From IMG/VR virus record IMGVR_UViG_3300032562_000209, positions 1-20,435 of that record: a stretch of DNA of 20,435 nt; one strand, written 5' to 3'. The notes below the pieces were generated by a model. That model was not told where the DNA came from and made no database searches. It saw only the letters and a program-made list of their open reading frames with translations. Numbering within the stretch: position 1 is the first letter of the stretch; each line of letters starts with the position of its first letter. The position numbers and the translations under genes were made by a program. Shown one piece after another: positions 2,253 through 20,435 of this stretch. The stretch comes from a virus.

Positions 2253-2307
2253 ATTACTGCCTCCCATCGCGTGGCATTCCCGTCCGCCGTCAAGTTACAG
2301 CCCTTCG

Positions 2308-2325: not shown

Positions 2326-2337
2326 GGTGCGTCTTCA

Positions 2338-2351
2338 TCGAAATAATTCGA
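2338..2351. repeat. Second short inverted repeat, AT-rich
   Basis: TCGAA, spacer ATAA, TTCGA. Its centre is 28 bp from that of the 2308-2325 repeat, in the most AT-rich stretch between the antisense gene and the pre-portal gene. This suggests a regulatory patch, but the arms are short and chance cannot be excluded. Confidence 0.35.
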
Positions 2352-2425
2352 GCCATTTTGGGCGAGGCGCAGGGGTCAGCACGGCATAGGTAACCAGAGT
2401 CAGGGCACCTTGCCGGAGCAACACC

Positions 2426-6121: not shown

Positions 6122-6122
6122 A

Positions 6123-6136
6123 CCGCAGCTCTGCGG
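6123..6136 (+). other. Short GC-rich hairpin after the capsid gene
   Basis: CCGCAG CT CTGCGG is a perfect palindrome starting two bases after the capsid stop codon. It has no T-run behind it, so it is unlikely to be a full rho-independent terminator. It may protect the 3' end of the capsid message or reduce read-through. Confidence 0.45.
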
Positions 6137-6153
6137 ATGCGTGAATCGAGACT

Positions 6154-6169
6154 GCGGCCCGTCGGCCGC
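6154..6169 (+). other. Second GC-rich hairpin in the capsid-decoration gap
   Basis: GCGGCC, loop CGTC, GGCCGC: six perfect GC pairs with a four-base loop, ending 15 bases before the AAGGAG of the next gene. With the hairpin at 6123-6136 it makes a two-stem leader in an otherwise compact operon. No T-run follows. A role in mRNA processing or stability is inferred. Confidence 0.45.
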
Positions 6170-6195
6170 CTGACCATCAAGATCAAGGAGCACAC

Positions 6196-6528
6196 ATGGG
6201 TGCCATTTACGTGCAAGATGACTATGTGATCGACTACACCCCCAGTGCGGCCGTCGCCGCCGGTGATGTGGTCGTCCAGGGCGACCTGTTGGGCGTGGCG
6301 ATTCGGCCTATTCCGGCCAACACACTGGGCTCACTGACTGTCGAGGGTATCTACGATTTTCCCAAGGCGACCAGCGCCGGCAGCGGCATCGTCTCCGGAA
6401 CCACCGTCTACTGGGATTCGACCAACTTGGTCATCACCGCAACCGCCCAGGGCAACAAGCTTGCCGGCAAGACCACCCGTGACGCCGCCGATGGCGATGC
6501 CACGGTGAGGGTGCGGCTCCATCAATAG
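6196..6528 (+). CDS. Capsid decoration/cement protein, DUF2190-like
   Basis: A 110-residue beta-rich protein right after the major capsid gene. The pattern VAAGDVVVQGDLLGVAIRPI, then VEGIYDFPKA, TTVYWDSTN, and a C-terminal GDATVRVRL resembles the DUF2190 family of small phage capsid proteins, which bind the outer capsid lattice and stabilise it. The ATG at 6196 has AAGGAG five bases upstream. The gene is separated from the capsid gene by 74 bases holding two hairpins. Glycine and alanine are frequent and there is no cysteine. Position and pattern agree; the exact family would need a profile search. Confidence 0.8.
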   Translation: MGAIYVQDDYVIDYTPSAAVAAGDVVVQGDLLGVAIRPIPANTLGSLTVEGIYDFPKATSAGSGIVSGTTVYWDSTNLVITATAQGNKLAGKTTRDAADGDATVRVRLHQ

Positions 6529-6535
6529 GAAGGGC

Positions 6536-6898
6536 ATGGCGAACCTGCTGGAACAAGCATCCAACTGGCTGGAAGACCAGCGGACACGGTTTGCAGCTTC
6601 CCTGGTGACCTACCAGAGCGGGAGTACCGCCATCCAAGTCCTGGCCACGGTTGGCAAGACGTTGTTTCAGACCGATGACGGCGCCGGCGCAGCGATCCTT
6701 ACTGAATCACGCGATTACCTGATCCTGGCCTCTGACCTAGCGATTGAGCCACAGCCAGGTGACCAGGTTGTGGAATCCGCCGGGAGCGCCACGAAGACCT
6801 ATGAGGTGGCCCGATTCGGCTCCGAGCCATGTTGGCGCTGGTCGGACAACTTCTTCAAGACCCGCCGCATCCACACCAAGCTCCTGACGACGTTGTAG
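6536..6898 (+). CDS. Head-tail connector / head completion protein
   Basis: A 120-residue protein seven bases after the decoration gene, with AGGAAGGG close before its ATG. An N-terminal helix (LLEQASNWLEDQRTRF) is followed by beta-strand-like stretches and a conserved-looking end, PQPGDQVVES then YEVARFGSEPCWRWSD and RRIHTK. This type of C-terminus is familiar from small proteins next to capsid genes in many prophages and is usually assigned to the neck or head completion. The function is inferred from position between capsid and tail genes. There is no signal peptide or membrane segment. Confidence 0.65.
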   Translation: MANLLEQASNWLEDQRTRFAASLVTYQSGSTAIQVLATVGKTLFQTDDGAGAAILTESRDYLILASDLAIEPQPGDQVVESAGSATKTYEVARFGSEPCWRWSDNFFKTRRIHTKLLTTL

Positions 6899-6926
6899 GG
6901 ATCGGCTGCAGAAAGGCAGAGCAATC

Positions 6927-7175
6927 ATGATCCGGCTATTGGCCATAGCGACTACTGCGGCGGCATACCTGGGCGGGCTCATGCTTGGAGACGCCCTGGG
7001 AACGGCGGCCAACCTCTCCATCATCGTCGGCGGGGTCATTGGTCTGGTCGCCGCCACGTGGAACCTGGTTCACCGCATCGACATGGTGATGTTGAAGGTC
7101 GAAGGCCTGGAACGGTCATTGAAGAACCTGCCGTGCCATGAAGGCGGGTGCGCGTGCCGAAAAGAGCATAGATGA
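6927..7175 (+). CDS. Small two-helix membrane protein, holin-like, with C-terminal Cys/His cluster
   Basis: An 82-residue protein with two predicted membrane helices (about residues 4-22 and 30-48) joined by a short loop. A short charged amphipathic stretch follows, and the end CHEGGCACRKEH has three Cys and two His in 12 residues. The size and two-helix layout resemble class II holins, but such proteins also occur as unassigned membrane proteins between connector genes. The Cys/His tail could bind metal. The stop overlaps the next start (ATGA), so the gene belongs to the head-tail operon. No lysis enzyme lies next to it, which weakens a holin call. Confidence 0.6.
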   Translation: MIRLLAIATTAAAYLGGLMLGDALGTAANLSIIVGGVIGLVAATWNLVHRIDMVMLKVEGLERSLKNLPCHEGGCACRKEHR

Positions 7176-7612
7176 CCAATGACGCGACTGTTGCTGTCGC
7201 CGATGCCGTCGTGGGGCTGCTCAATAGCCCGGCCACGGCGACCTTCACGCCATCCTTTACCGCCGTTCGGTCCTACCGGCCCATGTACAGCCTGGAAGAC
7301 CTGAAAACGCTACGGGTGACCGTGGTCCCGCGGGGAATTGCCGAGGAGGCAATCACCCGGACAACGAGCCAGGACGACCCGACCGTGAACGTTGCCGTCC
7401 AGCAATGGTGCTCGAACACCGCCAACGCAACGCTGGACCCGCTGATGGGGCTTGTGGACCAGATCCGCCAGGCCCTGAGGCTGCAAAGGCTCGATTCGCC
7501 ATCGGCCATGTGGATCAAGACCGAGACCAACCCGATCTACTCGGCCGAGCATCTGGACCAGCACAAGGTGTTCACCAGCGTCCTGGCGGTGACGTACCGC
7601 ATCATCCGCTGA
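7172..7612 (+). CDS. Tail terminator / minor tail protein-like
   Basis: A 146-residue soluble protein that overlaps the membrane-protein gene by 4 bases (ATGA). The sequence runs from an N-terminal helix (VAVADAVVGLLNSP) to YRPMYSLEDLKTLRVTVVP, a helix NATLDPLMGLVDQIRQAL, and a final strand pattern FTSVLAVTYRII. This layout and the position between the connector and the tail-tube block fit small tail-terminator or tail-completion proteins (lambda gpU-type role), which cap the tail tube and join it to the head. Assignment rests on size, order and general fold impression, not on a diagnostic motif. Confidence 0.6.
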   Translation: MTNDATVAVADAVVGLLNSPATATFTPSFTAVRSYRPMYSLEDLKTLRVTVVPRGIAEEAITRTTSQDDPTVNVAVQQWCSNTANATLDPLMGLVDQIRQALRLQRLDSPSAMWIKTETNPIYSAEHLDQHKVFTSVLAVTYRIIR

Positions 7613-7619
7613 GGCAACC

Positions 7620-7889
7620 ATGGCCAATCAGACCGTCATGCGAAGGGTCAACGTGACCGCCGACTACGCGCCCCTGTCGGCTGTGCCGCTCGTCGTCAGC
7701 GTGTGCATCTCCTGTCCGCCCGGCAACGGAGCGGCGGTGGAGTTTCTGGGAGATGATGGCTCGGACGTGCCGTGGATTCCCGGGCAGTGGGTTGAGTTCA
7801 GGCATGTGGATCTGTCGCAGATTCAGGTGAAGGGCACGCCTGGCGACACGGTCGTGATCCTGGGTTGGGCCGGCGGCAGCCGCGATTAA
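7620..7889 (+). CDS. Small beta-rich structural protein, unknown function
   Basis: An 89-residue protein seven bases after the tail-terminator-like gene, with GAGG just before the ATG. Alternating hydrophobic residues suggest a small beta sandwich: VNVTADYAPLSAVPLVVSVCISCPP, then VPWIPGQWVEFRHVDLSQIQVKG and DTVVILGWAGG (parts quoted). There is no catalytic motif or membrane helix. Small beta proteins at this place may decorate the virion or the fibre encoded next. I do not recognise a named family. Confidence 0.6.
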   Translation: MANQTVMRRVNVTADYAPLSAVPLVVSVCISCPPGNGAAVEFLGDDGSDVPWIPGQWVEFRHVDLSQIQVKGTPGDTVVILGWAGGSRD

Positions 7890-7898
7890 AGGTGAATC

Positions 7899-9230
7899 AT
7901 GGGTTACACATCCGGTGCTACCGGGACCGTCAACCTCGAACTTGCCCTGGCCATGGGCAACACCGCTCCCGATAGCGACCTTGGGCCGGTCAATGAACTG
8001 TTCGCCGAGAGCTTTGGCGGCGGCAGCAACGGCATCGGTGCCGCCCTGGAGACGCTGCTGGAGGGCAACGGGGTCATTCCCACCATTGAATTCTCCTGGC
8101 CAAGCAGCAGCGACCAATTCCGCGTGGGTATCGGGCAGATGTACGGCTACGGCCAGTTCGTCATGGATGACGTGACCAACAGCATCCGGATGGTCATGGC
8201 CGGACAATACCGCAACGGCAACGAGCTGGTCTGGTTCAACACCGGCGGCAATCCCAGCGTGGTCATGCACAATCTGTACCTGGACACCTACGGCGGTGGG
8301 TCTTCCGAGGTCGGCGAGTATCTGGCCACCCTGGGAAGTAACTTCGACGCCTACGGCGCGGCACAGGACGTGCGCATGTCGCTCAACACCGCCGCCACGG
8401 ATACCAATATATCCGCCGATGGAAGCGGCAATTTGACTGCCACCGATATACACATTGGCTGGGAGTATGGCGTCAATACCACTATGGGTGCAGCCGTTTG
8501 TTCAGGGGGCAGCGGCATGTTCTATTCGACAGGTGACAGCCATGTGTACAAAGACAATAACATAACCAGTGATGGCTATGGCAATATAACCGCTAACCAA
8601 ATAAACGTTTGGGGCAATGGCGTCTTACCCATAATCGTAAACAATGGTGCCGCCAAGGTAGACAACGAAGGCAATGCCACTTTTGCCGACATAACCCTTA
8701 CCGACGTTGGCAGTAGCTTTTCAGTGGCCACAGCCTTTAACGGACTCCAAAACAACGCCGGAAACGGAACCCAATACATGCTATGCGGGGGAAGTGGTTG
8801 CATGTATGTGGATACCAACATAACCACGGACGGGAGCGGAAACCTAAGCGTCAATAACCTTGCATTACGGGGACAAGGGGGTTTATGTTGGATGGATACC
8901 GGCGCTGGCTCAGTTTGGTGCGATGCCAACATCCTGCCGAATGGCGAAGGGTGGCTTAAGTTCACCGGCGGAGGGTCCGGGATCGAGTTCGATGACAGCA
9001 GCAACGGCATCTCGCTGGGCGCGGCCAGCAGACTGAATATGGCGGCGGGCGGCCCCTATTCCTACGGGCGCCTGGCCCTCCCGGACATCTCCCACCAGTC
9101 CACGGTGGAAAACTCCCTGGTCGCCAATACCGCATGGGCGACCCTTGACGAAATCAACAGCAACCTTGTCTTTTCCGTTTTGCTGAGCGACGGGCAAACC
9201 GTGAAACATGGAACCGTCGCACTTTCATAG
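7899..9230 (+). CDS. Fibre-like virion protein with repeated DGxGN units
   Basis: A 443-residue Gly/Asn/Thr-rich protein. From about residue 170 a degenerate unit recurs: NIxxDGSGNLTATDI (D174), DGYGNITANQI (D225), NEGNATFADI (about 255), DGSGNLSVNNL (D311), and a worn copy near 347. Such units are typical of phage fibre shafts and tail-fibre-like proteins, where they build beta-helical or triple-stranded stalks. Residues 1-160 probably form the virion-attachment part and about 380-443 the tip or trimerisation end. The start ATG follows AAGGTGA. The DNA from about 8400 to 8900 is lower in GC and uses ATA codons freely, unlike its flanks. Receptor binding is inferred. Confidence 0.65.
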   Translation: MGYTSGATGTVNLELALAMGNTAPDSDLGPVNELFAESFGGGSNGIGAALETLLEGNGVIPTIEFSWPSSSDQFRVGIGQMYGYGQFVMDDVTNSIRMVMAGQYRNGNELVWFNTGGNPSVVMHNLYLDTYGGGSSEVGEYLATLGSNFDAYGAAQDVRMSLNTAATDTNISADGSGNLTATDIHIGWEYGVNTTMGAAVCSGGSGMFYSTGDSHVYKDNNITSDGYGNITANQINVWGNGVLPIIVNNGAAKVDNEGNATFADITLTDVGSSFSVATAFNGLQNNAGNGTQYMLCGGSGCMYVDTNITTDGSGNLSVNNLALRGQGGLCWMDTGAGSVWCDANILPNGEGWLKFTGGGSGIEFDDSSNGISLGAASRLNMAAGGPYSYGRLALPDISHQSTVENSLVANTAWATLDEINSNLVFSVLLSDGQTVKHGTVALS

Positions 9231-9238
9231 GAGCCTCA

Positions 9239-9535
9239 ATGGCCAGCACGCTTTACAACCCGTTCCTGACTTCCCCAGCCGGACAGCTCGTCCAGGCCCT
9301 TAGCAACCTGGACGCCCAGATCGCCCTCCAGGTCACGCGCATGGTTCAGCAGAGCGAGCAGGCGCTCACCCAGATCACCGCCGCCGTGGCGCGGATCGGC
9401 CTGGCGACGTTCAACGCCGCCCTGGAGGCCAACCAGGCCGGCAGTTCTGCGACCTTCGCCACGCAGTTTGCGGCGGCCGTGGCCAGCGTCCAGGCCCAGG
9501 ATGCCTCGTTCACCTGCGCTCTGCCGACCAAGTAA
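9239..9535 (+). CDS. Small alpha-helical protein, unknown function
   Basis: A 98-residue Ala/Gln-rich protein made almost entirely of helix-forming residues, with long amphipathic stretches (SNLDAQIALQVTRMVQQSEQ and following). AGGAG lies five bases before the ATG, and the stop overlaps the next start (TAATG). It may be a coiled-coil partner or chaperone of the preceding fibre-like protein, because it follows directly in the operon. There is no signal peptide, cysteine cluster or enzyme motif; I do not recognise the family. Confidence 0.6.
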   Translation: MASTLYNPFLTSPAGQLVQALSNLDAQIALQVTRMVQQSEQALTQITAAVARIGLATFNAALEANQAGSSATFATQFAAAVASVQAQDASFTCALPTK

Positions 9536-9933
9536 TGGTCACTATGAAGGCCAAGACCGAGTGGGACCCTCGCGCCGTGAAGGTTGCCCAGAAGCTCGGC
9601 ATGGTCAAGAGCCTGACGCAGGCGGGCGGCGCGATACGCAAGACGGCCCAGCGGCGGATCAAGATCAACCCCAAGCCCTCGCCGCCGGGAACATCGCCCA
9701 ATAGCCGCCAGGGTGCCTTCCGCAACGCCATTCAGTATGCCGTCGACAAGTACCGCATCAGTTGCCTGATTGGACCCAGCGCCGACATCGTGGCGGATGT
9801 CGGCCAGCCCATGGAGTTCGGGGGATTGTTCCGCGGCCAGCACTACCCGGTTCGCCCAACCATGAAGCCGGCTTTGGACATCGTGATGCCTCGGTTGCCG
9901 GAGTTCTGGAAAGATTCAGTCAAAGCTCAGTAG
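9535..9933 (+). CDS. HK97 gp10-like tail completion protein
   Basis: A 132-residue basic protein with the layout of HK97 gp10-like tail-completion proteins: an N-terminal helix (VAQKLGMVKSLTQAGGAIRK), a basic TAQRRIKINPKPSPPGTSP stretch, a middle strand region with IGPSADIVADVGQPMEFGG, and a final RPTMKPALDIVMPRLPEFW. The PSPPG(T)SP and YP-RPTMKPAL patterns are characteristic of that family. These proteins join the tail terminator to the neck. The ATG at 9535 overlaps the previous stop by one base; a second ATG lies three codons in. The tail tube gene follows nine bases later. Confidence 0.75.
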   Translation: MVTMKAKTEWDPRAVKVAQKLGMVKSLTQAGGAIRKTAQRRIKINPKPSPPGTSPNSRQGAFRNAIQYAVDKYRISCLIGPSADIVADVGQPMEFGGLFRGQHYPVRPTMKPALDIVMPRLPEFWKDSVKAQ

Positions 9934-9942
9934 GAGGAAGAC

Positions 9943-10443
9943 ATGTTCGGTGCAAAGTACGGCCTCGATGCGAAACTCTACCTGGCTGTTGGCGCGGGTG
10001 GCTCTGCCGCAACAAACGGCATAGGCATCGGCGGCACCGCCGGCGTGTCCAGCGGCACATCTGCCGGCTGGCTGGAAATGGGCAATGCCAAGACGGTGAC
10101 GCTGAACCTGCAGTCCGGCGAGAGCGACACCACCACCCGGGCCAACAGCGGCTGGAAGGCTTCCGATCCCGTGCTCAAGGAGGCCAGCATCGAATGGGAA
10201 ATGGTCTGGAACACCGGTGACCAGGGTTTTACCCTGATCCAGCAGGCCTACTTCAACAAGAGCATCATCGGCATCGCCGTCATGGACGGGGCCATCAACG
10301 TCTCGGGCAACCAGGGGCTGCTGGCCGACTGCAAGATCCACAACTTCACCCGGGATGAGCCGCTGACCGAGGCGATCACCGTCAAGGTGACGGCCAAGCC
10401 CGCCTATTCCGTGAACGCGCCCACCTGGTACACGGCGGCCTAA
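9943..10443 (+). CDS. Major tail tube protein
   Basis: A 166-residue protein with a strong GGAGG site before its ATG, in the usual place between tail completion and the tail chaperones. It has a Gly/Ser-rich loop near residues 20-45, a strand pattern AKTVTLNLQSGESDTTTRANS and SIEWEMVWNTGDQGF, and the C-terminal EAITVKVTAKPAY typical of tail tube proteins of siphoviruses (parts quoted). These proteins stack as hexameric rings to form the tail tube. The size and the SGWKASDPV-like middle fit. High expression is expected from the strong ribosome binding site. Confidence 0.82.
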   Translation: MFGAKYGLDAKLYLAVGAGGSAATNGIGIGGTAGVSSGTSAGWLEMGNAKTVTLNLQSGESDTTTRANSGWKASDPVLKEASIEWEMVWNTGDQGFTLIQQAYFNKSIIGIAVMDGAINVSGNQGLLADCKIHNFTRDEPLTEAITVKVTAKPAYSVNAPTWYTAA

Positions 10444-10474
10444 GTCTGTCGACACTGGTTGCGAGGAGGACGTT

Positions 10475-10999
10475 GTGACTGCGTTGATCATAGCAGGACT
10501 CTGGCCGGAGTTGGGCGGTACGGCCGAATCGTTGCAGGAGCTGGCCGATAGCCTCCAGGCGGCCTGTCCCGCCGCCAAGGTTCTGGTCCGTCATTGGGAC
10601 GCCGACCTGAACGAACTGATCCAGGTAATCCAGCAACTTGGAGGGCCGTACCTGATCATTGGCCATAGCTTCGGAGGCTCCACTGCCGTCGCATTGTCTG
10701 CCGCATGGGGCCAGAAGATCGACAGGATGATCCTTCTCGATCCGGTCCCGCATGACGATCCGTTGATGGTTCGCACGAAGGTCGAGGACCAATGGGTAGA
10801 CGCCTTTGCCATACCCGAGGCTGTCATTCGGTGTGACTGCTACCTCCGCCACGCCGGGATCATCCCCCCGTACTCGAAGCCCGTTGCTTCGACTTCCAAC
10901 GTGACGAACACCTACATGGACCTGGGCCACTCTGAGTTCTGCTCGAATCCGACCGTCTTGGATCACATTGACTCTGCTGCAAAGGAGTTGTGCGTATGA
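10475..10999 (+). CDS. Alpha/beta hydrolase (lipase/esterase-like) in the tail module
   Basis: A 174-residue protein with a clear nucleophile elbow GHSFGGS (S65) after the strand YLIIGHSF, a following LLDP (D89), and a late GHSEF (H152) that can supply the catalytic histidine. The protein is short for the alpha/beta-hydrolase fold (usually over 200 residues), so the core is minimal. GTG is the start, supported by GAGGAGG five bases upstream. The stop overlaps the chaperone ATG (ATGA). Possible roles are cleavage of an envelope ester or lipid during entry or release, or modification of a virion protein; this is inference. The substrate is unknown. Confidence 0.75.
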   Translation: MTALIIAGLWPELGGTAESLQELADSLQAACPAAKVLVRHWDADLNELIQVIQQLGGPYLIIGHSFGGSTAVALSAAWGQKIDRMILLDPVPHDDPLMVRTKVEDQWVDAFAIPEAVIRCDCYLRHAGIIPPYSKPVASTSNVTNTYMDLGHSEFCSNPTVLDHIDSAAKELCV

Positions 11000-11493
11000 G
11001 GACCTTCAAGGACAACGCCGGCCGCGATTGGACGGTTGCGATCAACGTCGATGTGGTCCAGCGCGTCCGCGACCTGCTCAAACTTGACCTGCTGGGAGTG
11101 CTCGATGGCGAGCTGACCCAGAAGCTCATTGACGACCCAGTGCTACTGTGCAACGTGGTCTACGTCGTCTGCAAGCCGGAAGCCGACGCCAAGAACGTTA
11201 AGGATACCGATTTCGGCCGGGCGATGGCCGGCGATGCCATCGATGCCGCGACGACCACGCTCCTGGAGGAACTGGTTGATTTTTTCCCCAAGTCCAGGAG
11301 GGGGCTGCTCGCCACGGCCCTGAGGAAGCTCAGGGAGGTCGAGCGGAAGGCTGTGGCCCTGGCACAGATGCGGCTGGACGGTCCGGAACTGGACCGCAAG
11401 ATCGACGAGCATCTGAGCGCGCTTGGGACGTCATCTGGCAGTGCGCCGGGGTCCTCGCTCTCCATCCCGGCCCCTTCACCCTCAGGCAGTTGA
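10996..11493 (+). CDS. Tail assembly chaperone, first frame (lambda gpG-like)
   Basis: A 165-residue soluble, charged helical protein just before the tape measure region. The start ATG at 10996 has AAGGAG eight bases upstream and overlaps the hydrolase stop; a GTG two codons earlier is too close to that site. It opens with MRTFKDNAGRDWTVAINV and then a helical DDPVLLCNVVYVVCKPEAD and LLEELVDFFPKSRRGLL part. The last 25 residues are Ser/Pro/Gly-rich and overlap a conserved-looking coding stretch in the -1 frame. Tail assembly chaperones bind the tape measure and are often followed by a second frame reached by -1 frameshifting. Assignment is by position, size and this overlap. Confidence 0.75.
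   Translation: MRTFKDNAGRDWTVAINVDVVQRVRDLLKLDLLGVLDGELTQKLIDDPVLLCNVVYVVCKPEADAKNVKDTDFGRAMAGDAIDAATTTLLEELVDFFPKSRRGLLATALRKLREVERKAVALAQMRLDGPELDRKIDEHLSALGTSSGSAPGSSLSIPAPSPSGS
11412..11492 (+). other. Dual-coding overlap: -1 frame reads as conserved N-terminal part of the second chaperone frame
   Basis: Upstream of the ATG at 11493 the same frame encodes SERAWDVIWQ, then CAGVLALHPG and PFTLRQLMAMT, which looks like genuine protein. The zero frame is Ser/Pro/Gly low-complexity there. No ATG, GTG or TTG start exists in that frame between its upstream stop (11277-11279) and the TTG at 11490. The stretch can therefore be translated only by a -1 shift from the first chaperone. No convincing slippery heptamer was found in 11380-11450. 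Confidence 0.55.
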
Positions 11494-11702
11494 TGGCCAT
11501 GACCAACGCTCGCACGGACGAGGCGTGGAATCACACCTCGGCGGTTCTGGCCATGCTCCACAACGTGAACCGCGGGCAAAACCAAAGTCCGGCCACGCCG
11601 GCGGACTTTCATCCCGGCTCCAAACGGCAGGACACGCTGCCGCCTCTCAAAGTACCTGTGAAATCGTTGCGGGGCATCTTCGTCAAAGAGCCCCACCCCT
11701 GA
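11493..11702 (+). CDS. Tail assembly chaperone second frame (lambda gpT-like extension)
   Basis: From the ATG at 11493 (TGATG overlap with the first frame) this encodes 69 residues: NARTDEAWNHTSAVLAMLHNVNRG, then PADFHPGSK, and a short basic end (parts quoted). The W..T..(L)LA...N pattern followed by DFHP is familiar from small proteins between chaperone and tape measure in many prophages. It lies in the -1 frame relative to the first chaperone, like lambda T relative to G. The convincing coding signal begins about 80 bases before the ATG, so the main product may be a frameshift fusion and not this free-standing protein. Both forms are possible. Confidence 0.6.
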   Translation: MAMTNARTDEAWNHTSAVLAMLHNVNRGQNQSPATPADFHPGSKRQDTLPPLKVPVKSLRGIFVKEPHP

Positions 11703-11734
11703 CGGCAGAACACACCTAATACAAAGGAGATTCC

Positions 11735-12433
11735 ATGCGGACCACCAGGATCATGCTTGTTTCTATCTTCCTCCCGCTGCTCGTTGTCGTAGGTTGCAAC
11801 CTCAGCAGCCCGACCACGACCGCTGATCAGGCGACTATCGCCAGCCTCCAGTCGCAACTGGCTTCCGCCCAGAAGCAGCTCGTGCCGGCAACCCAGGCGG
11901 TCGTTACCGCACAGAATGTCGTGGCGACCCAGCCGACGGCTGATAACAGTACCGCCCTGGCCGCACTCCAGTCGCAGTCTGCGGCGCTGCAGCAGCAGGT
12001 GACCTCGCTCAATGGGCAACTGGCGGCGGCTCAGTCCAAATACCAGGCTGACATGACGGATTTGAAGGCATCGGTAGCAACGAGCGTGACGGCGGCCGTT
12101 GCCGCCGCAGCTCCGGCTGCGCCACCGCCTTGGAACTTACTTATCACCGGCCTAGCCATTCTCGGCGGCGCTATCGCCCACGGGATTCTGACCAAGCCTG
12201 CAAACCAGTCGACGGCCACGAACATGGCTGATTCCGCTGTGTCGGTGGTTCCGTCACTGGTGACAGCGCTCACGGCCAGCAACCAGGCCCACGCCACGAC
12301 CGCCCAGGCGGCGGTGGCTGCCCTTAACGCGGCGACGCCGGCGCTGACGGCGGTGACACCTGCCGCACTGCAACCGGCTGTCGCTCCCGTCGTGGCTGCC
12401 GTTGATGCCGTGGTAGCCCCGAAGGCCACATAA
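11735..12433 (+). CDS. Phage lipoprotein with coiled coil and internal membrane helix, spanin-like candidate
   Basis: A 232-residue Ala/Gln/Thr-rich protein. It opens with a type II signal peptide: positive N-terminus, hydrophobic core, and lipobox VVVGC with C21 as the lipidated cysteine. Residues about 31-110 form a predicted coiled coil (repeats of LQSQLA and LQQQV type). Residues about 134-152 (LLITGLAILGGAIAHGI) are a membrane helix, followed by 75 residues of Ala/Val/Thr-rich helix. N-terminal lipid anchor, helical linker and later membrane helix is the plan of unimolecular spanins, but the long tail after the helix is atypical. The gene lies between chaperones and tape measure, with AAGGAG before the ATG. 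A superinfection-exclusion lipoprotein is the alternative. Confidence 0.65.
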   Translation: MRTTRIMLVSIFLPLLVVVGCNLSSPTTTADQATIASLQSQLASAQKQLVPATQAVVTAQNVVATQPTADNSTALAALQSQSAALQQQVTSLNGQLAAAQSKYQADMTDLKASVATSVTAAVAAAAPAAPPPWNLLITGLAILGGAIAHGILTKPANQSTATNMADSAVSVVPSLVTALTASNQAHATTAQAAVAALNAATPALTAVTPAALQPAVAPVVAAVDAVVAPKAT

Positions 12434-12448
12434 GTCACCGGAGCCCAG

Positions 12449-14440
12449 ATGCCCAGCCAATCCAACATCCGAGCTGGCGGCGCGTTCGTCGAGCTCCTGG
12501 TCAATGATTCCAAGCTGGCCAAGGGTCTGGACGATGCCGGGAAGAAGCTGCGCAAGTTCGGGGATGGCATCGGGGACATAGGCAAGAAGGTCGCCGGCGT
12601 GGGTGCTCTGGTGGCAGCGCCCATGCTGGCTTTTGCCAAGGTCTTCTCCGGGGGCGCTCACGAGATCGAAAAGATGTCTGCCCGCACGGGTATCGGGGTG
12701 GAATCGCTTTCCGCCCTGGGCTATGCCGCCGAAATGAGTGGCGTTGAGATGGAGAGCCTGGCCGGCGGCATCAACAGGATGCAGCGGACCATCGTGGAAG
12801 CCGCCTCGGGCTCGTACGAGGCACAGGAGTCACTGGCCGAGTTGGGGCTGACAGTCAAAGACCTGGATCACCTGTCTCCCGACAAGCAGTTCGCGGTGAT
12901 CGCCGACAAGCTGGCCGCCATCCAGAACCCAACAATCCGCGCTGCGATGGCCATGAAGATCTTCGGCCGCGGCGCTGGTGAACTGCTGCCGCTGTTGTCC
13001 ATGGGCTCCAAGGGCATCGAGCAGTGGATGGAACAGGCCCGGCAGATGGGGCTGACGACCGATCGGAACGCTGTGGAATCGGGTGTGCGGCTGGACCAGG
13101 TGCTCAAGACCCTGTGGATGCAGATGGAGAAGGTCGGCAAGACCATCGGCTCCGCCTTGGCTCCCATGCTCACCAGCCTGGGAAAGAAAGCAGAGCTGAT
13201 CGCGGCGTCGACAATCGCCTGGATCAAGGCCAATAAGCAGGTCGTGATTACCGTCTTCGAGGTCGCTGCCGGGGTAGTTGCCGCCGGGGCTGCCATTATG
13301 GTCCTGGGATATGCCATCTCCGCTCTGGGCACGGTGTTTTCGGCCCTGGGTGCTGTGGTCGGGGTCGTGGTGACGGCCTTCTCAATGGCCGCCGGCGTTA
13401 TTGGGGCGATCCTCACGCCTGTTGGCCTGGTGGTTACTGCCGTGGTTGCCCTGGGGGCGTATGTCGCCGTTGCCAGCGGAGCCGCCGGCAAGGCCCTTCA
13501 GTGGCTGGGCGACAGGTTCACCGACCTTAAGGACTTCGTGGGGGAGGCCTGGGAGGGAATTGCTGACGCCCTGGCATGCGGGGACATCGCCCTGGCCGCG
13601 AAGATCATGTGGCTCACCGTGAAGTTGGTCTGGCAGAAAGGGGTCGCTGGGGTCGAGGATGTCTGGCACGAGTTCCAGGGGTGGCTGGTCAAAGTCGCTG
13701 TCGGCGCCTTCGAGGGGTTCCTGGCAGCCGTCGAGATCGTCTGGCACGGCGTCAAGGTCGCCTGGATTGAGGGCACTGCTTTCATCCGCCGGACCTGGTC
13801 GACGCTCATGGAGTGGCACCAGAAGGCCGTCGAAGGCCTGGCCGAGGCGATGGTGTCGGCCTGGCTATGGGCGCAGGAGAAGACCGGAGCCATCACCCCC
13901 GAGGACAGGCAATTTCAGCAGCAATACGCCGATGAGGACTTTGGCCGCCAATCCAAGGAGTCGGAAGACCAACGGAAGAAACAGCGGGCGGAGGCCGATG
14001 CCGACCTTAAGAAGTCGCGGGATGAGGAATCCAAACGGCACACGGACCGGATGGCGGGCATCGGTCAGGATTACGAAGACATCGCCGCCGCCGTGGACAA
14101 GAACAACGCCGATGCCCGGGCCAAAGCGCAGGCCGACCTGGACAAGGCCCGCCAGGAGTGGAAGGACGCCATCGCGGCCGCCAAGGCGAAAAAGGGCAAG
14201 GGGATGGGTGACAAGGAGCCTCCCAAGGCCCCGCCTGGTCCAGGCGACCTCGATGAATCCCTGGATATCATGCGCCGGAAGGTGGGCGTCATGGGGACGT
14301 TCAATGCCGCCGCCGTGCGGGGATTCGCCAGCGGCAGCAATGATCATGTCGCCAGGGCTGCCAACGCCGCCGAGAAGGTTGCCAAAGGGGTCGGCGACAT
14401 CGCCACGGCCGTGAAGGCGGGCATGAACTTCGGAGCATGA
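12449..14440 (+). CDS. Tail tape measure protein
   Basis: A 663-residue protein that should set tail length and sit inside the tail tube. The N-terminal region has helical GKKLRKFGDGIGDIGKKVAG and ARTGIGVESLSALGYAAEMS, typical of tape measure starts. Residues about 264-347 are almost continuously hydrophobic with Ala/Val/Gly (several membrane-like helices), and about 480-590 are highly charged coiled coil (SKESEDQRKKQRAEADADLK). The end GTFNAAAVRGFASG and the final amphipathic helix are a frequent tape measure C-terminus. At about 1.5 angstrom per residue, the rule of thumb for tape measures, a tail near 100 nm is implied. GGAG precedes the ATG. The chaperone pair lies upstream, with the lipoprotein gene between. 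Confidence 0.9.
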   Translation: MPSQSNIRAGGAFVELLVNDSKLAKGLDDAGKKLRKFGDGIGDIGKKVAGVGALVAAPMLAFAKVFSGGAHEIEKMSARTGIGVESLSALGYAAEMSGVEMESLAGGINRMQRTIVEAASGSYEAQESLAELGLTVKDLDHLSPDKQFAVIADKLAAIQNPTIRAAMAMKIFGRGAGELLPLLSMGSKGIEQWMEQARQMGLTTDRNAVESGVRLDQVLKTLWMQMEKVGKTIGSALAPMLTSLGKKAELIAASTIAWIKANKQVVITVFEVAAGVVAAGAAIMVLGYAISALGTVFSALGAVVGVVVTAFSMAAGVIGAILTPVGLVVTAVVALGAYVAVASGAAGKALQWLGDRFTDLKDFVGEAWEGIADALACGDIALAAKIMWLTVKLVWQKGVAGVEDVWHEFQGWLVKVAVGAFEGFLAAVEIVWHGVKVAWIEGTAFIRRTWSTLMEWHQKAVEGLAEAMVSAWLWAQEKTGAITPEDRQFQQQYADEDFGRQSKESEDQRKKQRAEADADLKKSRDEESKRHTDRMAGIGQDYEDIAAAVDKNNADARAKAQADLDKARQEWKDAIAAAKAKKGKGMGDKEPPKAPPGPGDLDESLDIMRRKVGVMGTFNAAAVRGFASGSNDHVARAANAAEKVAKGVGDIATAVKAGMNFGA

Positions 14441-14441
14441 C

Positions 14442-15266
14442 GTGGCCATCACCTGTGATGAAAAGTTCCAGAGCCGCAAGACCACCGGAGGCGATCAGCC
14501 GGCCGAGGACCTGATCTTCATCCTCCGGGGCTCCGATGACGAAGTTGCCCTCCTGACCACGATCCTCAACGCCACTACTCTGTATTACAACGGCATGATC
14601 CGTAAGACCTGGGACGTCGAGCAGGTGGACAATAGCCTGTGGATCGGCACGGTGAAGTATGGCCGGATCGATACCGCCCGCTGGCCGGTCGGGACGATCA
14701 CCATCGCCGCCGACACCACTGGCGGCCAGATGCACCTGTCCCAGAGCATTACCACCGTCAATAAGTATGCCCCGGCCGGCAAGACAGCACCCGACTTCAA
14801 GGGTGCCATCGGCGTTACCCAAGATGCGGTGGAAGGCGTCGATGTCCCGGCCCCGGAGTTCAAGTTCACGGTCACCAAGGTGTTTGCCAAGGGCACGACG
14901 CCGGACCTGGGCGCGTGCTACAAGCTCAAGAACAACACCAATGCCAGTTCCTTCACGGTGACAGACACCTTCACCGGCATCACGATCACGCTGAACCCAG
15001 GCGAGTGCCAGTTCCTGGGTCTGAAGTTCACCGGGCAGCGGTTCGATACCAATATCGAAATCTGCTACGAGTTCATGGCCGCGCCGAACGTCACCGGCCT
15101 GACGGTGGGAGACATCACCGGCATTGCCAAGAACGGCTTTGACTACCTCTGGACGCGGTATGACGAGGTGGTGGATACCACGGCCAACCGCCTGGTCCGC
15201 CGGCCAACCGCAGTGTACGTTGAGCAGGTGTTCAACTCCGGCGACTTCACGGTCCTGGGCATTTAG
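14442..15266 (+). CDS. Distal tail-like structural protein
   Basis: A 274-residue beta-rich protein directly after the tape measure, in the place of distal tail proteins. It starts at GTG, one base after the tape measure stop, with GGAG six bases upstream. The sequence holds repeated short strands, for example SLWIGTVKYGRI, TITLNPGECQFLGLKFTGQR, and a C-terminal FDYLWTRYDEVVDTTANRLVRRPTAVYVEQVF end (parts quoted). There is no enzyme motif. I recall similar hypothetical proteins at this locus in other high-GC prophages. A role as distal tail or baseplate hub component is inferred from position. Confidence 0.6.
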   Translation: MAITCDEKFQSRKTTGGDQPAEDLIFILRGSDDEVALLTTILNATTLYYNGMIRKTWDVEQVDNSLWIGTVKYGRIDTARWPVGTITIAADTTGGQMHLSQSITTVNKYAPAGKTAPDFKGAIGVTQDAVEGVDVPAPEFKFTVTKVFAKGTTPDLGACYKLKNNTNASSFTVTDTFTGITITLNPGECQFLGLKFTGQRFDTNIEICYEFMAAPNVTGLTVGDITGIAKNGFDYLWTRYDEVVDTTANRLVRRPTAVYVEQVFNSGDFTVLGI

Positions 15267-15274
15267 GAGATGAC

Positions 15275-16306
15275 ATGGGCGACCCCCTCAAACACGTCAG
15301 CCAGGGCGATCCGATCAACTTAAGCGCCACGGCGTGGAATGCATTCATTGATGCCGCCAAGGATTATCAGCGCCGGCGCCTGAGCGGCGGCATGTCCTCC
15401 ACCCCGACCTCGCGGGATGGCACTATCATAAGCCTCCAGAATAATACCGGTTCGGCCATAGGCCGCTTCTCCGTGCTTTCGCTCAGCGGGCCATGCTTCG
15501 ACCCTCCCAGTGTCAGCGGCACGAATGACACCGATTTCTTCAATCGCACCGCCTTCTACGGATACACGCCCCAGAACTCCGATGTTGGCACAGGGAAGTT
15601 CGCTGTCACGCTCGCCCCAGCCGGCCCTGGTGACGTTGTAGACGGCTTTGCCGCCGGCGTGTTCCCGGTCATCCTACAGTACCCACCGCCCAGTAACTCG
15701 GCATCCGCTTCACTCAACCGTGCTGACGTCGTGCCTGGTGATTGCACGATGCTGGCCGCCAATGCTACCGGCCCTGCCTCTGTGCTCTGGTCTGACACGG
15801 TGCCGGATGGAGGTGGAACTGTCGCCGCCATTGTCCGGCTCGGCGACCCTGTTCCCCAGTCCCCTGTGGTCGTCTACCTGACGGGCACTAACGACTATAA
15901 GAGCGGATTCTATGAGGGCTACTATCTAGACCGCACGGGCTCAATCATGACCTGTGTCACCGTGCAGAATGCCGCCGAGGCATTCTGTATCAACCCGGCG
16001 GCAGCGCCGGTGCATCTACTCGACACCGACATCGGACCTACCGGCAACTTCCATGTTGGCGTCCTGAGCCTGATTGCCCCGGACAACACCAATCGTGCAC
16101 TGGTTACCATCGACACCGACTCCGTGGGTAACACTGATGCCGGAGACAACAACGGTAGCGGTGACATGGTGACGGAATGGGCGAGGGGTGATGGATTCGG
16201 CGCCACCCTGACGGTGGTAATCAAGAACTACACGGGGGGAACGGGACTTGCCAGCCTCCGATGGGATGCGTTCGGGCACCTGTATTACGTGGCCATTATC
16301 GGATGA
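15275..16306 (+). CDS. Tail tip / baseplate-like structural protein, last gene of the rightward operon
   Basis: A 343-residue beta-rich protein with AGGAGA before its ATG. It opens with GDPLKHVSQGDPINLSATAWNAFIDAAKDY, a start I recall from proteins near the tail end of other prophages in high-GC hosts (quoted in part). Many short strands follow, with Asn/Asp/Gly-rich loops such as DNTNRAL and DAGDNNGSGD, and a final WDAFGHLYYVAIIG. This fits a tail tip, adaptor or short fibre. It is the last rightward gene; the stop lies inside the left arm of the inverted repeat at 16300-16378. No catalytic motif is visible. Confidence 0.6.
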   Translation: MGDPLKHVSQGDPINLSATAWNAFIDAAKDYQRRRLSGGMSSTPTSRDGTIISLQNNTGSAIGRFSVLSLSGPCFDPPSVSGTNDTDFFNRTAFYGYTPQNSDVGTGKFAVTLAPAGPGDVVDGFAAGVFPVILQYPPPSNSASASLNRADVVPGDCTMLAANATGPASVLWSDTVPDGGGTVAAIVRLGDPVPQSPVVVYLTGTNDYKSGFYEGYYLDRTGSIMTCVTVQNAAEAFCINPAAAPVHLLDTDIGPTGNFHVGVLSLIAPDNTNRALVTIDTDSVGNTDAGDNNGSGDMVTEWARGDGFGATLTVVIKNYTGGTGLASLRWDAFGHLYYVAIIG

Positions 16307-16446: not shown

Positions 16447-17307
16447 CTAAAGGGCCGCAGCTACTTTCGCCTTGATGCGGAAATAGGTGGCACGCGAGGC
16501 CCCCGTGGTCGCAGTAAAACGAGCAACCCGCTCCTGCTCGGAATGCAACTCTGGGTCGTGTTGTATGGCTATAGCACAGGCCGCACGGCTGTCCGGGATG
16601 ATCATCTGCAGGAGACTGTTGCGCCAATCCTCCAACCCCGCCCGGCGTAGCTGCGATCCTTTGCAGTAATGCCGCATGGATATCGCCGGAACGACCGGTA
16701 TCAACTTCCCCAAGAACTCGTACACTTCCTGGTCGTCGAACCACTGGCTGACCTTGCGATGCACCTCTTCGTTGGGCGGAGAGAAGTGCAGAATGATGGC
16801 CCGGTCCTCCAACGCGCGCACGTTCGGATTGAGGCTCTTCCACTCATTGGCGATGAGAATCACGCTGCTGGCGGTCGTGAACGACGACGGCAGCGCCCCG
16901 TCGTTCATGGTCAGGTTCGTAAGCCAATGGAGCCGTTTCTCGCGCACGGTGTTGCACAGCGGTTTGAGCAGGCGCACGCAGTCCGGATCGGCGTAAAGCC
17001 GGTCCAGGTCATCGAGGATTATGGGGCAGTTGCGGTAATCCCACAGCTGGCGGTACAGGCCAAAGGGCTGCATGTGGCCCTCCACGTACAACGCGCCTTG
17101 GTCTGCGCTCGGTGCGCAGTCAGAGGTCTGGGGGTTGGAAAAGATCTGGCGTACGCTCTCGGTCTTACCGGTACCGTGGCGGCCCAGAAGCAAGACCAGC
17201 CCCAGGTCTCCGCGGGCGAACTTCGCCAGGTACAGGTCCAGTTGCGCGTAGGCCGACAGACGAATGACTTCGCGCGGCAGGGCCGGAGATCTTGGTCGGG
17301 TGGTCAT
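16447..17307 (-). CDS. AAA+ ATPase with C-terminal helix-turn-helix-like end
   Basis: A 286-residue AAA+ protein with Walker A GRHGTGKT (42-49), Walker B CPIILDD (94-100), a sensor-1-like LIANEW (N154), and a nearby arginine in RALEDR. The end VARFTATTGASRATYFRIK (about 261-279) looks like a helix-turn-helix for DNA binding. It is the last gene of the leftward operon. AAA+ proteins of this size act as DNA-binding regulators, replication loaders or transposition targeting factors (MuB/TniB type), but no transposase is near. The ATG at 17307 is preferred; a GTG at 17367 would add 20 residues. No good Shine-Dalgarno precedes either. Walker A lacks the ParA signature lysine pattern. Confidence 0.75.
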   Translation of the reverse strand: MTTRPRSPALPREVIRLSAYAQLDLYLAKFARGDLGLVLLLGRHGTGKTESVRQIFSNPQTSDCAPSADQGALYVEGHMQPFGLYRQLWDYRNCPIILDDLDRLYADPDCVRLLKPLCNTVREKRLHWLTNLTMNDGALPSSFTTASSVILIANEWKSLNPNVRALEDRAIILHFSPPNEEVHRKVSQWFDDQEVYEFLGKLIPVVPAISMRHYCKGSQLRRAGLEDWRNSLLQMIIPDSRAACAIAIQHDPELHSEQERVARFTATTGASRATYFRIKAKVAAAL

Positions 17308-17314
17308 GGGCAAG

Positions 17315-17328
17315 GCCCCCAGGGGGGC
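17315..17328 (-). promoter_or_regulatory. GC-rich hairpin just before the AAA+ start
   Basis: On the minus strand GCCCCC, two bases, GGGGGC, then seven bases and the ATG at 17307. It covers the position where a ribosome binding site should be, so it may limit translation of the ATPase, or the start may be elsewhere. Confidence 0.35.
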
Positions 17329-17336
17329 GTAGGATG

Positions 17337-17354
17337 CAAAAATGCGAGTTTTTG
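17337..17354. repeat. AT-rich inverted repeat between the repeat-protein gene and the ATPase gene
   Basis: CAAAAA, six bases, TTTTTG. It is the most AT-rich spot of the leftward operon and lies within an 80-base gap, the only sizeable gap in that operon. Possible promoter or protein-binding site; weak evidence. Confidence 0.3.
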
Positions 17355-17371
17355 AGATTGGGCACACAAAA

Positions 17372-17395
17372 CCGCGTTTCTAGGGTTCTACGCGG
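17372..17395 (-). terminator. Possible weak terminator at the end of the repeat-protein gene
   Basis: On the minus strand CCGCGT (17395-17390), 12-base loop, ACGCGG (17377-17372), then TTTT. It overlaps the TAG stop of the upstream gene. The T-run is short and the loop large, so it might only attenuate transcription into the ATPase gene. Confidence 0.3.
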
Positions 17396-18299
17396 GGTGA
17401 TCCGGTCGCACCACGCCAGTGGGTTGCGACTGTTTTGAGCTCGGCTCTCTTGTGCCGGGAATCTGGGGCGGCTCCTTTCTCTGAGGAGACACTCGGTAGG
17501 CGTCGGGGTCCAAGCCCGCCGCCGCTAAAGCATTGCTCCAATTCTTCAAGTGGCGGCGAGCCGCCCGGTAAAGGCCCCGATCCTCGCGTGCCAGCGAACG
17601 GGCATTCATGTGCTTACGCTCGCGCAGCCGCGCGTGAATGGCGGTAATTACCAGTTCTTTGGTCCACAGTTGGCGCGGCTGGTGTACGGCCCTAGGCCGG
17701 GGCGCTCGCTGCCGTGGAGCTTGGGGCTCCTTGGGACGCGCCGGGAGCAATGGGATGGCCTTGAGGTCCAGCCCGGCCGCTGTGACCGCCGCCGTCCAAT
17801 TGCCAAAGAGACGCTCCCCGGCTACCGCCAATGAGCGCGGTTCGACATCGTGTGGAGCCAGCGATTCATTTCGCAGGGCGCGGGTCAGAATGGCTTCGAT
17901 GACCCGGCCCTGGTTCCACGGCACGATGCGCTGGAGCCGAGTCGGATCGACTCCGGCCGCCAACACCGCCTTGGTCCAGGAACCATAGTACCGGCGCGCC
18001 GCCGACATCATGCTGCCGTACCGCCGCTCCAACTGCGGGCCGCTCAGGGGCCGGTCGCGGTGGGCCAGGCGGCGGATGATCATCAGCACCTTCGCCGGCG
18101 ACCATCGCTCCCAGGTCAAAACGCGCTCCGGCATGATCCCAGCGGCCCGGATCGCGTTCCGCCATGAGCCGAAGAACCGCCGAGCCGCCTGATACAGCAA
18201 GTTATCCACGCCATCGCGGCCGGCATGTAACGGGAGACCCTTGGCCTCACGCTCCAGCACATGACGAATGATCCGCTCCCGTGTCCATTGGTGTCGCAT
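17388..18299 (-). CDS. Protein of four homing-endonuclease-associated-type DNA-binding repeats
   Basis: A 303-residue very basic protein built of four copies of one unit, roughly residues 5-55, 66-117, 128-177 and 212-263. Each copy runs from a Trp (W5, W66, W128, W212) through a helix with an isoleucine/valine pattern, a loop, then an Ala/Arg helix ending FGSW or similar, and A..AAG. This matches the repeat known beside homing endonucleases (HNH_repeat type), thought to contact DNA. A Pro/Arg-rich linker separates copies 3 and 4, and the last 40 residues are disordered-looking. No HNH, GIY-YIG or other nuclease motif is visible, so it is a binder without an obvious blade. It starts two bases after the second ParB-like gene, with GAGG upstream. 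Confidence 0.75.
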   Translation of the reverse strand: MRHQWTRERIIRHVLEREAKGLPLHAGRDGVDNLLYQAARRFFGSWRNAIRAAGIMPERVLTWERWSPAKVLMIIRRLAHRDRPLSGPQLERRYGSMMSAARRYYGSWTKAVLAAGVDPTRLQRIVPWNQGRVIEAILTRALRNESLAPHDVEPRSLAVAGERLFGNWTAAVTAAGLDLKAIPLLPARPKEPQAPRQRAPRPRAVHQPRQLWTKELVITAIHARLRERKHMNARSLAREDRGLYRAARRHLKNWSNALAAAGLDPDAYRVSPQRKEPPQIPGTREPSSKQSQPTGVVRPDHPA

Positions 18300-18301
18300 G
18301 G

Positions 18302-19156
18302 CTATCCTCGTGCATCGGCGATGATGCCTTCAAACCGCGCCACGATCTCCGAGTGGTGCTGGTCCAGGTATTCCCGCAGGCGCTGGTTGGTTAGCAGCGA
18401 GCGTGCGTAGATCGCCAGGCGCAGCAGATCGGCCGTGTATTGCTTGTAGAGCTGCGAGTAGAAGTCATGCTTCTGCTCGGCTTCGGTCAACTTCTTGAGC
18501 AAATCGTTCTTTCTCTGCGTTGTCTTATCCCACGGGTTATGTTTGCGGCCCCGGCTCTCGCGCTCGTGCGGCGGGGTCTTGACCACCAACGTGCGGGCGA
18601 AAGTGGTGCTGTAGTCCTTGTAGCTCTCCATCGTTTGGAGGATTTCCCGCTGGCGAGCAGGCTTGACGTGTGTGAACTCGCGGGCGCACACACGGGTGAT
18701 CTTGCCGGCGTCGAAAGCTGCTGCCACATCGGGGTGGAGTTGCTTGAGCAGCGTCTTCCTAAGCCGGTGCGCCAGCCCGGAGATACCCAGTGCCGCGGCG
18801 ATGGCGGCCTCATCTACCTCGGCCAGAGACCTTTCGATCATCCGGTGCTCCTGGATGGGCGAGACCCGGTTGACCATGCGGTTGCTGGTGAAGGCTTCGC
18901 GCTGCTTGCCCAGAATACATGGCACGACCTCCACGCCCAACGCCACCAGCGCCCGATAACACTGCGCGCCATCGAGAATCACGTAGCCATCGCCGTCGGG
19001 ATAGATTACCAGGGGCTCGATCAGGCCCACGGCCTTGATGCTGGCAATGATGCGGTCGTACTCGCGCTTTGTGATCTTGCGTTCACGCAGCGGCCGCAGA
19101 CGCGCGACGGGGAGGTCGAGGCCCACGGAGTCTTTCATGAGCTCGGTTTGGTTCAT
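18302..19156 (-). CDS. ParB-like protein, second of a tandem pair
   Basis: A 284-residue protein. Residues about 15-85 form a ParB N-terminal fold: LRPLRERKITKREYDRIIAS, GLIEPLVIYPDGDGYVILDGAQCYRALVALG (parts quoted). The usual GERRxRA box is replaced by DGAQCYRAL, keeping only the last arginine. A helical middle (about 105-190) may hold a helix-turn-helix. The C-terminal 80 residues form a charged helix with NQRLREYLDQHHSEIVARF. The ATG at 19156 overlaps the previous stop (ATGA) and has AGGAG seven bases upstream; an open frame continues 39 codons further up but overlaps the first ParB-like gene. The partner is the RepB-like protein before it. Role in partition, replication control or DNA bridging is unproven. 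Confidence 0.78.
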   Translation of the reverse strand: MNQTELMKDSVGLDLPVARLRPLRERKITKREYDRIIASIKAVGLIEPLVIYPDGDGYVILDGAQCYRALVALGVEVVPCILGKQREAFTSNRMVNRVSPIQEHRMIERSLAEVDEAAIAAALGISGLAHRLRKTLLKQLHPDVAAAFDAGKITRVCAREFTHVKPARQREILQTMESYKDYSTTFARTLVVKTPPHERESRGRKHNPWDKTTQRKNDLLKKLTEAEQKHDFYSQLYKQYTADLLRLAIYARSLLTNQRLREYLDQHHSEIVARFEGIIADARG

Positions 19157-20064
19157 GGGATGGCTCCTGCCAGATTGGAATTGTGGGCGGCGATGTTGTA
19201 CTTGCCGGTGAGATCGGGGCGCTGGTCGAGTTTCTCGTCCACAAGCAGTTGCGCGAAATCCGGGTCTTTCCATAGCACCTCAAGCCCGTCCAGGAGCATG
19301 TAGAGGCGGCTTTCCTTCCCTTGGGCTTCGCGGGCAAACGAATCCTTGGCCTGCGTGGCACTGGCGATGTCCTGGGTCAGCGTCGCGACGGTGTAATCCT
19401 CGGGTTGGGTTCCTCTTCGTTTGCGCCGGTCGAGCCGCGCGGTGATGATGGCGCGGGCGCGGGCGAAGTTGTTGGAGTTGACGATCCCCTGGTCGAAGGC
19501 GTCCATGAGGACGTTCTGGATCGTGCCGTCATCGGCTTGGGCGACCAGCACGGCAAACGAGATGGGGAACACATCCTGCTCGACGCCTTGGATCAGTCGG
19601 TCCTCGCCGTTCTCCACCAGTCGGATGTACTGGCGGATGTATTCCGGGCTCCGGCAGGCGATCCTGGCGATCTTCTCATAGTCCCAGCCTTCATCATGTA
19701 GGGCTTTGAGTTCCCGCGCAAAGTGCATGGTGCCGGGGCGCGTGCGGGCGAGGTTCTCGACCAGCGATTCGAGGTAGGCCTGCTTGCGGCTGCAGGTGAC
19801 GATCTCGGCGCGGATGTGCGTCTTGCTCAGGCGTTGATGGGCTATCAGACGCCCCTCGCCACAGATCAGCTCGTAGAAGCCGTCTTTGGCCAGGAACTTA
19901 TCGTTCACCCGGATGTCCTTAATCTGGCCGACGGCGTCGATGCTTTGGACGTTGAGGGCAAACTGTCCTTCATCACGCTCGCGGTGATTAAGGACCAGGA
20001 CTTTCTCGACGGGGATCATCTCCCGCCGGCGGTCTTTCATGAGTCGGATGGTTACGTGTTCCAT
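19153..20064 (-). CDS. RepB/ParB-like protein, first of a tandem pair
   Basis: A 303-residue protein. Residues about 16-105 are a ParB/RepB-type N-terminal domain: IPVEKVLVLNHR, VQSIDAVGQIKDIRV, and the box CGEGRLIAHQRL (69-79), a variant of the nucleotide-contacting GERRxRA. A helix-turn-helix follows (DYEKIARIACRSPEYIRQYIRL, about 128-149; quoted in part). The C-terminus, LEVLWKDPDFAQLLVDEKLD, fits the RepB partition C-terminal family as I recall it. The start abuts the previous stop (TGA-ATG) with GAGG just upstream. Canonical ParB proteins spread on DNA from parS with CTP; whether this one does is unknown, and no ParA partner is visible. Confidence 0.8.
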   Translation of the reverse strand: MEHVTIRLMKDRRREMIPVEKVLVLNHRERDEGQFALNVQSIDAVGQIKDIRVNDKFLAKDGFYELICGEGRLIAHQRLSKTHIRAEIVTCSRKQAYLESLVENLARTRPGTMHFARELKALHDEGWDYEKIARIACRSPEYIRQYIRLVENGEDRLIQGVEQDVFPISFAVLVAQADDGTIQNVLMDAFDQGIVNSNNFARARAIITARLDRRKRRGTQPEDYTVATLTQDIASATQAKDSFAREAQGKESRLYMLLDGLEVLWKDPDFAQLLVDEKLDQRPDLTGKYNIAAHNSNLAGAIP

Positions 20065-20435
20065 TCATGACCTCGCAAGTTTGGAAATGAACTCCAGTCC
20101 GGTGTGCCCATACATGTCGAGGCGAGTTTCGGAGCTGCCGAACACGCGAATACCGTGATCGCGCACCAAGAGGCGCGGCAGCGCGACGTAGCCCAAAATC
20201 TGCGGTCCCTCGCTGGAAGACACTGGCACGCCCAGCGTGATGTCGACGACGCCCCGCAGGTCGGGGCGAAAGTACCAATACTGGTTGAAGCCATACGGCA
20301 CGGGCACCGATGGCTGGATCAAAACGGTGAACTTGCCATTGACCACCAGGAAATCGTCGTAAGCGTCGACCTGCTCGACCGCCTCGCGCAGGAGCGTCTC
20401 GACCTGGGTGCGGACCTCGACGGCGGCGGTGCGAA
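20065..20435 (-). CDS. Unrecognised protein, C-terminal part, cut by the window end
   Basis: An open frame enters from the right edge and stops directly before the RepB-like start. At least 123 residues are readable. A helical charged part (VRTQVETLLREAVEQVDAYD) comes first, then a beta-rich part with FTVLIQPSVPVPYGFNQYWY, ITLGVPVSSS and VALPRLLVRDHGIRVFGS. A GTG at 20346 is probably internal, because the frame continues upstream with protein-like sequence. It is the first visible gene of the leftward operon, abutting the RepB-like gene. I do not recognise the family. Confidence 0.6.
   Translation of the reverse strand, partial: RTAAVEVRTQVETLLREAVEQVDAYDDFLVVNGKFTVLIQPSVPVPYGFNQYWYFRPDLRGVVDITLGVPVSSSEGPQILGYVALPRLLVRDHGIRVFGSSETRLDMYGHTGLEFISKLARS

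Follow-up and report, generated by a model that had tools for sequence, protein, structure and literature searches.

The nearest described system found for the locus examined here is an ssrA-island module of Dehalococcoides, which contains a large serine recombinase (DsiB), a small serine recombinase (DsiA), and a ParBc protein (PMC3146451). The two are compared by gene content and by their described mode of working. In both, a ParB-domain gene shares one module with a large serine recombinase (about 500-540 aa), and the module lies where a mobile island ends (PMC3146451). The Dehalococcoides islands are found in tandem and some lack a module of their own, which is counted here as a likeness (PMC3146451). 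Their site is the T-loop of tmRNA (PMC3146451), which can be compared with the T-arm-like border motif found on Rhizobiaceae plasmids, and DsiA is similar in idea to short resolvase-domain ORFs upstream of the recombinase in some copies of the present module. There are also differences. The Dehalococcoides module has one ParB gene, whereas two are present here, and it has neither a protein with homing-endonuclease-associated (HNH) repeats nor an AAA+ protein. In their place it carries RecF-like, Mom-like, and RNA-polymerase-like genes. In the literature searched, it was the only close case of a recombinase in an operon with ParB or RepB genes.

Three other groups can be compared. Orthologous operons on Pseudomonadota plasmids encode a recombinase followed by two RepB C-terminal proteins, but lack the repeat protein and the AAA+ protein, and their ParB1 usually has GQGR in place of GEGR. 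Large serine integrases such as those of phiC31 and SPbeta (YokA/SprA) share the Resolvase domain and PF07508. The phiC31 and SPbeta enzymes use a directionality factor, while the recombinase described here has no zinc ribbon and has ParB-like operon partners instead. The CTPase clamps Spo0J, Noc, and KorB match ParB1 in sequence, and G[EQ]xR and ENxxR are kept. Unlike them, ParB1 has no ParA partner and is paired with a motif-divergent ParB2 and a recombinase.

The window, that is, the whole stretch of DNA analyzed, is a 20.4-kb virus record. Its cassette (16447-20435) lies on the minus strand and has four complete ORFs and one ORF cut by the end of the contig. The cut ORF (20065..20433) corresponds to the last 122 aa, at the C-terminus, of a large serine recombinase. 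It is followed on the same strand by ParB1 (19153..20064), ParB2 (18302..19156), a protein with four homing-endonuclease-associated repeats (17388..18299), and an AAA+ ATPase with a C-terminal helical, HTH-like tail (16447..17307). The start of ParB2 is the ATG at 19156, rather than 19273. The AAA+ gene has an ATG start at 17307 and an alternative, longer GTG start at 17367. The junctions are 0 nt, an ATGA overlap, 2 nt, and 80 nt. These coordinates and gaps confirm the arrangement given by an earlier, sequence-only reading of this DNA, which had also placed the cassette facing a phage structural operon. PHROG matches bear this out: the plus strand (1..16306), outside the module, encodes terminase, portal, head protease/capsid, decoration, major tail, and tail tape measure proteins. 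Related phages, with portal proteins about 70% identical, are represented by the window and two other contigs (L004 and L009). In all three the module holds the same position, next to the tail operon. The L009 phage, on a 37-kb contig, has a Prim-Pol gene away from the module. A gene with a DarT-like (ssDNA ADP-ribosyltransferase) domain is also present on the phage contig of L009 (L051:2792-4387). The cassette is not a chance assembly, because the gene order repeats in independent relatives.

The sequence-only reading had found no integrase or transposase in view. This has to be corrected: an integrase seemed to be missing because the window ends inside the recombinase gene. Another contig of the same phage, L002, is 100% identical to window positions 8350-20435 (12.1 kb) and runs 3 kb beyond the end of the window. 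There, the fifth gene is complete (L002:1888-3402, about 504 aa), and its product, a large serine recombinase, contains both a Resolvase (PF00239) and a Recombinase (PF07508) domain, the latter matched at E=4e-22 in a profile search. The catalytic serine and arginine motifs, YYRHS and DVSRWGR, are intact in it and in every planctomycete relative tested, and a profile search matches the protein to SPbeta YokA structures in their recombinase domain. The zinc ribbon PF13408 is common but not universal among large serine recombinases. A profile search of the L002 protein found no match to it, and no cysteines are located after residue 300 in the recombinases of L002, L005, and L009. An HNH-repeat unit in place of the zinc ribbon at the C-terminus was considered and set aside; it gave a weak hint alone (Pfam E=0.25 in one of seven, hhalign probability 30%).

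Upstream of the recombinase on L002 is a winged-helix gene (Trans_reg_C). Resolvase-domain ORFs of 110-137 aa are also found upstream of the recombinase in L002 and in some Pirellulaceae loci. Those resembling the recombinase catalytic domain alone are L002:1482-1895, L022:7832-8224, L026:7809-8216, and L027:7836-8222, and the one in L002 seems to be without a catalytic serine. In L005, L007, L009, L010, and L012, there is no space for such an ORF between the winged-helix gene and the recombinase.

The sequence-only reading had recognized two ParB-fold proteins, a four-repeat DNA binder, and an AAA+ ATPase, and the profiles agree. ParB1 has a weak ParB_N match and clear ParB/Spo0J-type matches, including Spo0J/Noc profiles, and matches the structures of Spo0J, Noc, and KorB in sequence. 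In ParB proteins, a GExR-type box II and an ENxxR box III form the CTP pocket. In the window these motifs are intact as GEGRLIA and ENLAR, and they are kept as G[EQ]GR and EN[IVL]AR in 26 of 26 ParB1 sequences. ParB2 matches the same fold, with ParB_N and RepB profiles (RepB C-terminal, PF07506, E=4e-7), but does not conserve the CTP-pocket motifs. Its relatives have L[DN]Gxx without GExR, and no ENxxR at the aligned box III. A ParABS partition system was rejected, since neither the module of the window nor that of any locus compared with it includes a ParA, as had been noted for the window before, and the only ATPase is the AAA+ protein.

The repeat protein contains four HNH_repeat stretches (PF18780, E=1e-15) and is predicted to fold as beads, with separate small helical units. 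A structure search with it gave no significant match to solved structures. The AAA+ protein (AAA_16, phrog_1250) has visible Walker A and B motifs and the C-terminal helical tail. Its predicted fold is generic for AAA+ proteins, with Z of about 12-13 to many AAA+ chains. MuB chains are in the Foldseek list for this model, amid many AAA+ proteins that score alike, and the fold does not single out MuB, TnsC, or any other subfamily.

Scanning genomes with ParB1 identified 21 loci, nearly all on contigs titled planctomycete. The module was found in nine of 294 sampled Planctomycetota genomes (about 3%), and also in a few phage contigs. Planctomycete loci seldom depart from the order recombinase-ParB1-ParB2-repeat protein(s). 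A winged-helix gene in front and an AAA+ gene at the end are variable members; one subclade gains the winged helix and usually the AAA+ gene too. A Pirellulaceae-like subclade has one to four repeat proteins, with no AAA+ gene found. The AAA+ protein is missing from many copies of the module and is dispensable. The sequence-only reading had asked whether all four complete genes stay together. They do so in one planctomycete subclade only; elsewhere the AAA+ protein is absent, or both it and the repeat protein are. Some planctomycete copies are decayed (L026 and L027), with ParB1 and ParB2 interrupted by other genes in both.

The orthologous triad, recombinase-ParB1-ParB2, is present on plasmids of Agrobacterium, Pseudomonas, Paraburkholderia, Sphingobium, Xanthobacter, and Roseomonas. 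In these Pseudomonadota copies the gene order is the same and the recombinase is matched across nearly its whole length. RefSeq annotates them as a 'recombinase family protein' and two 'RepB C-terminal' proteins. The earlier statement that mobile elements are known to carry RepB/ParB genes in tandem was right. The repeat protein and the AAA+ protein are both absent from them, and among the loci examined the repeat protein is confined to planctomycetes. Over 25 loci, the identity matrices of the recombinase, ParB1, and ParB2 correlate pairwise with r=0.95-0.97; the observed value for recombinase and ParB1 was reached in none of 1000 permutations. The triad has therefore, for the most part, been inherited as one unit and is, judged from sequence, a conserved operon across phyla. 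The gene combination had rightly been called unusual, with the reservation that one of its genes might be a regular part of a well-described operon. This reservation applies in part: the ParB genes are indeed regular in the recombinase-RepB-RepB operon, but the literature searched held no published study of the function of that operon.

Evidence for mobility comes from comparing sequences of A. fabrum and other Rhizobiaceae and of Pirellulaceae. On the A. fabrum plasmid pAt, the triad and a small ORF form a discrete 3.9-kb block that is 97% identical to a copy in a different context in strain 1D1460. The borders of this block carry a motif of about 20 bp, CCTTGANNGGNNTYGAACC, which resembles a tRNA T-arm in antisense. 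Other Rhizobiaceae plasmids have this motif, or its AA variant, at the borders of Fic, AbiE, and VapBC modules. A stretch of 138 kb contained nine exact matches, all in a single orientation, where simulation gave a mean of 0. Sites that border these modules or the triad are located at 4915 and 8797 in L030, 8888 in L036, 9918 in L037, 9924 and 10813 in L038, 2491 in L042, and 2493 in both L043 and L045. The motif-bordered Fic, AbiE, and VapBC modules and the triad sometimes stand in tandem on Rhizobiaceae plasmids, like an integron cassette array, and a 1.3-kb Fic module has identical ends in many different plasmids. The triad is not always a mobile unit, because the Sphingobium plasmid copies sit within a conserved stretch. 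For the Pseudomonas megaplasmid, a search for an empty site found no related plasmid without the insertion. Searched with Rfam, neither the window nor two Agrobacterium loci gave matches, and no tmRNA was found in the window.

Among the planctomycete copies, those of Pirellulaceae share one left end, GCCGCTTGATGACTGC, across five contexts with differing flanks. In four contexts the right end falls at the stop codon that closes the last repeat gene, and in R. obstinata the right end coincides with a boundary in another genome, G387. The T-arm-like motif was sought at the ends of planctomycete modules and was not found. Neither the window phage nor any planctomycete copy yielded an att site, an attL/attR pair, or a clean empty site; the search among Pirellulaceae islands showed a relic and a right-end breakpoint, and no clean empty site. 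The relic, in genome G345 (L111:11252-11547), is roughly 300 bp of the left end of the module joined to a right flank known from Rhodopirellula rubra. The joint was apparently made by a deletion with GCCGGG microhomology.

Several copies adjoin defense-type genes. In two Pirellulaceae genomes a DISARM operon (drmA, drmB, and drmC) is directly upstream of the module (L026:1248-7570 and L027:1574-7591), and the two operons are about 90-95% identical. On a contig from a virus collection (L005), a 1056-aa SIR2-pAgo fusion is encoded upstream of the module (3543-6713, PADLOC about 1300 bits). The same contig has a second large serine recombinase, in which a zinc ribbon is present (927-2498). Genes for an Hma-like helicase (L007), a DrmD-like protein (L013), and a TmtA-like protein (L016) adjoin the module elsewhere. 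When 68 flanking proteins were compared with 68 control proteins from the same genomes, many defense matches were found in both sets and no enrichment near the module was demonstrated; those in the control set include PD-T4-6, a UvrD-type helicase model, and DrmD/DrmMI. Transfer RNA genes adjoin the module in three loci, as an array of 32 in L006 (10101-14592) and as clusters at whose start the contigs end in L015 (8194-8992) and L020 (12712-12988).

The cassette is a conserved recombination module with unusual accessories, namely two ParB proteins, a repeat protein, and an AAA+ protein. It probably serves a temperate planctomycete phage for site-specific recombination (integration/excision), and the window phage is best read as one example among the carriers of a broader class of mobile elements, built on a ParB pair and a large serine recombinase. 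In such a module, the recombinase would cut and join the attachment sites. ParB1, probably as a CTP-dependent clamp, and ParB2, as a non-CTP partner, would bind near the site and could control synapsis or direction in place of the missing zinc ribbon of the recombinase. The repeat protein may add further site-specific DNA contacts, and the AAA+ protein, where present, may remodel or load the complex. These last two cannot be essential for recombination generally, because the Pseudomonadota copies lack both. A more specific version is tentative and rather doubtful. It holds that a CTP-switched ParB1 clamp and a non-CTP ParB2 set the site and direction of the recombinase, with the HNH-repeat proteins and the AAA+ protein as added layers, and that the Rhizobiaceae triad might mobilize neighboring toxin-antitoxin and Fic cassettes in trans through the shared T-arm-like site, as a serine-recombinase integron.

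Since the accessory proteins are ParB-like and the triad is common on plasmids, the module could instead serve maintenance, with the ParB pair partitioning a circular prophage and the recombinase resolving dimers. This is unlikely, as the module has no ParA or other partner at any locus, PF07508 in the recombinase is a domain of large integrases and transposases and sets it apart from a small resolvase, and copies occur both on contigs of bacteria and, as a discrete block, on large plasmids. It is also improbable that the module is cargo or a defense or competition device in which the recombinase switches or moves defense genes instead of integrating the phage. Several bacterial copies do adjoin DISARM, pAgo, Hma-like, DrmD-like, and TmtA-like genes, and inversion by the serine recombinase PinQ is reported to alter phage susceptibility (PMC12529663). 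However, the small control from the same genomes also held defense genes, and no PADLOC model matched the module proteins apart from a marginal match of a ParB domain to a methyltransferase model. The sequence-only reading had suggested loading, positioning, protecting, or replicating phage DNA, and a site-specific recombination module explains the cassette better. A replication or DNA-loading module, built of an initiator-like AAA+ protein and DNA binders, is very improbable: the AAA+ fold is like that of initiator and clamp-loader proteins, among many others, but the related phage has its Prim-Pol gene elsewhere, many copies lack the AAA+ protein, and the constant partner is the recombinase.

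In large serine recombinases, which are in wide use as tools for genome engineering, it is normally a small partner protein that sets the direction. A conserved operon in which such an enzyme is joined by one ParB CTPase-like protein and one further ParB suggests that control works by another mechanism. Read as a recombination module, the recurrent annotation of a 'recombinase family protein' with two 'plasmid partitioning protein RepB C-terminal' genes would be explained as a mobility module, and the operons annotated in this way would be tied to phages and to islands of defense genes.
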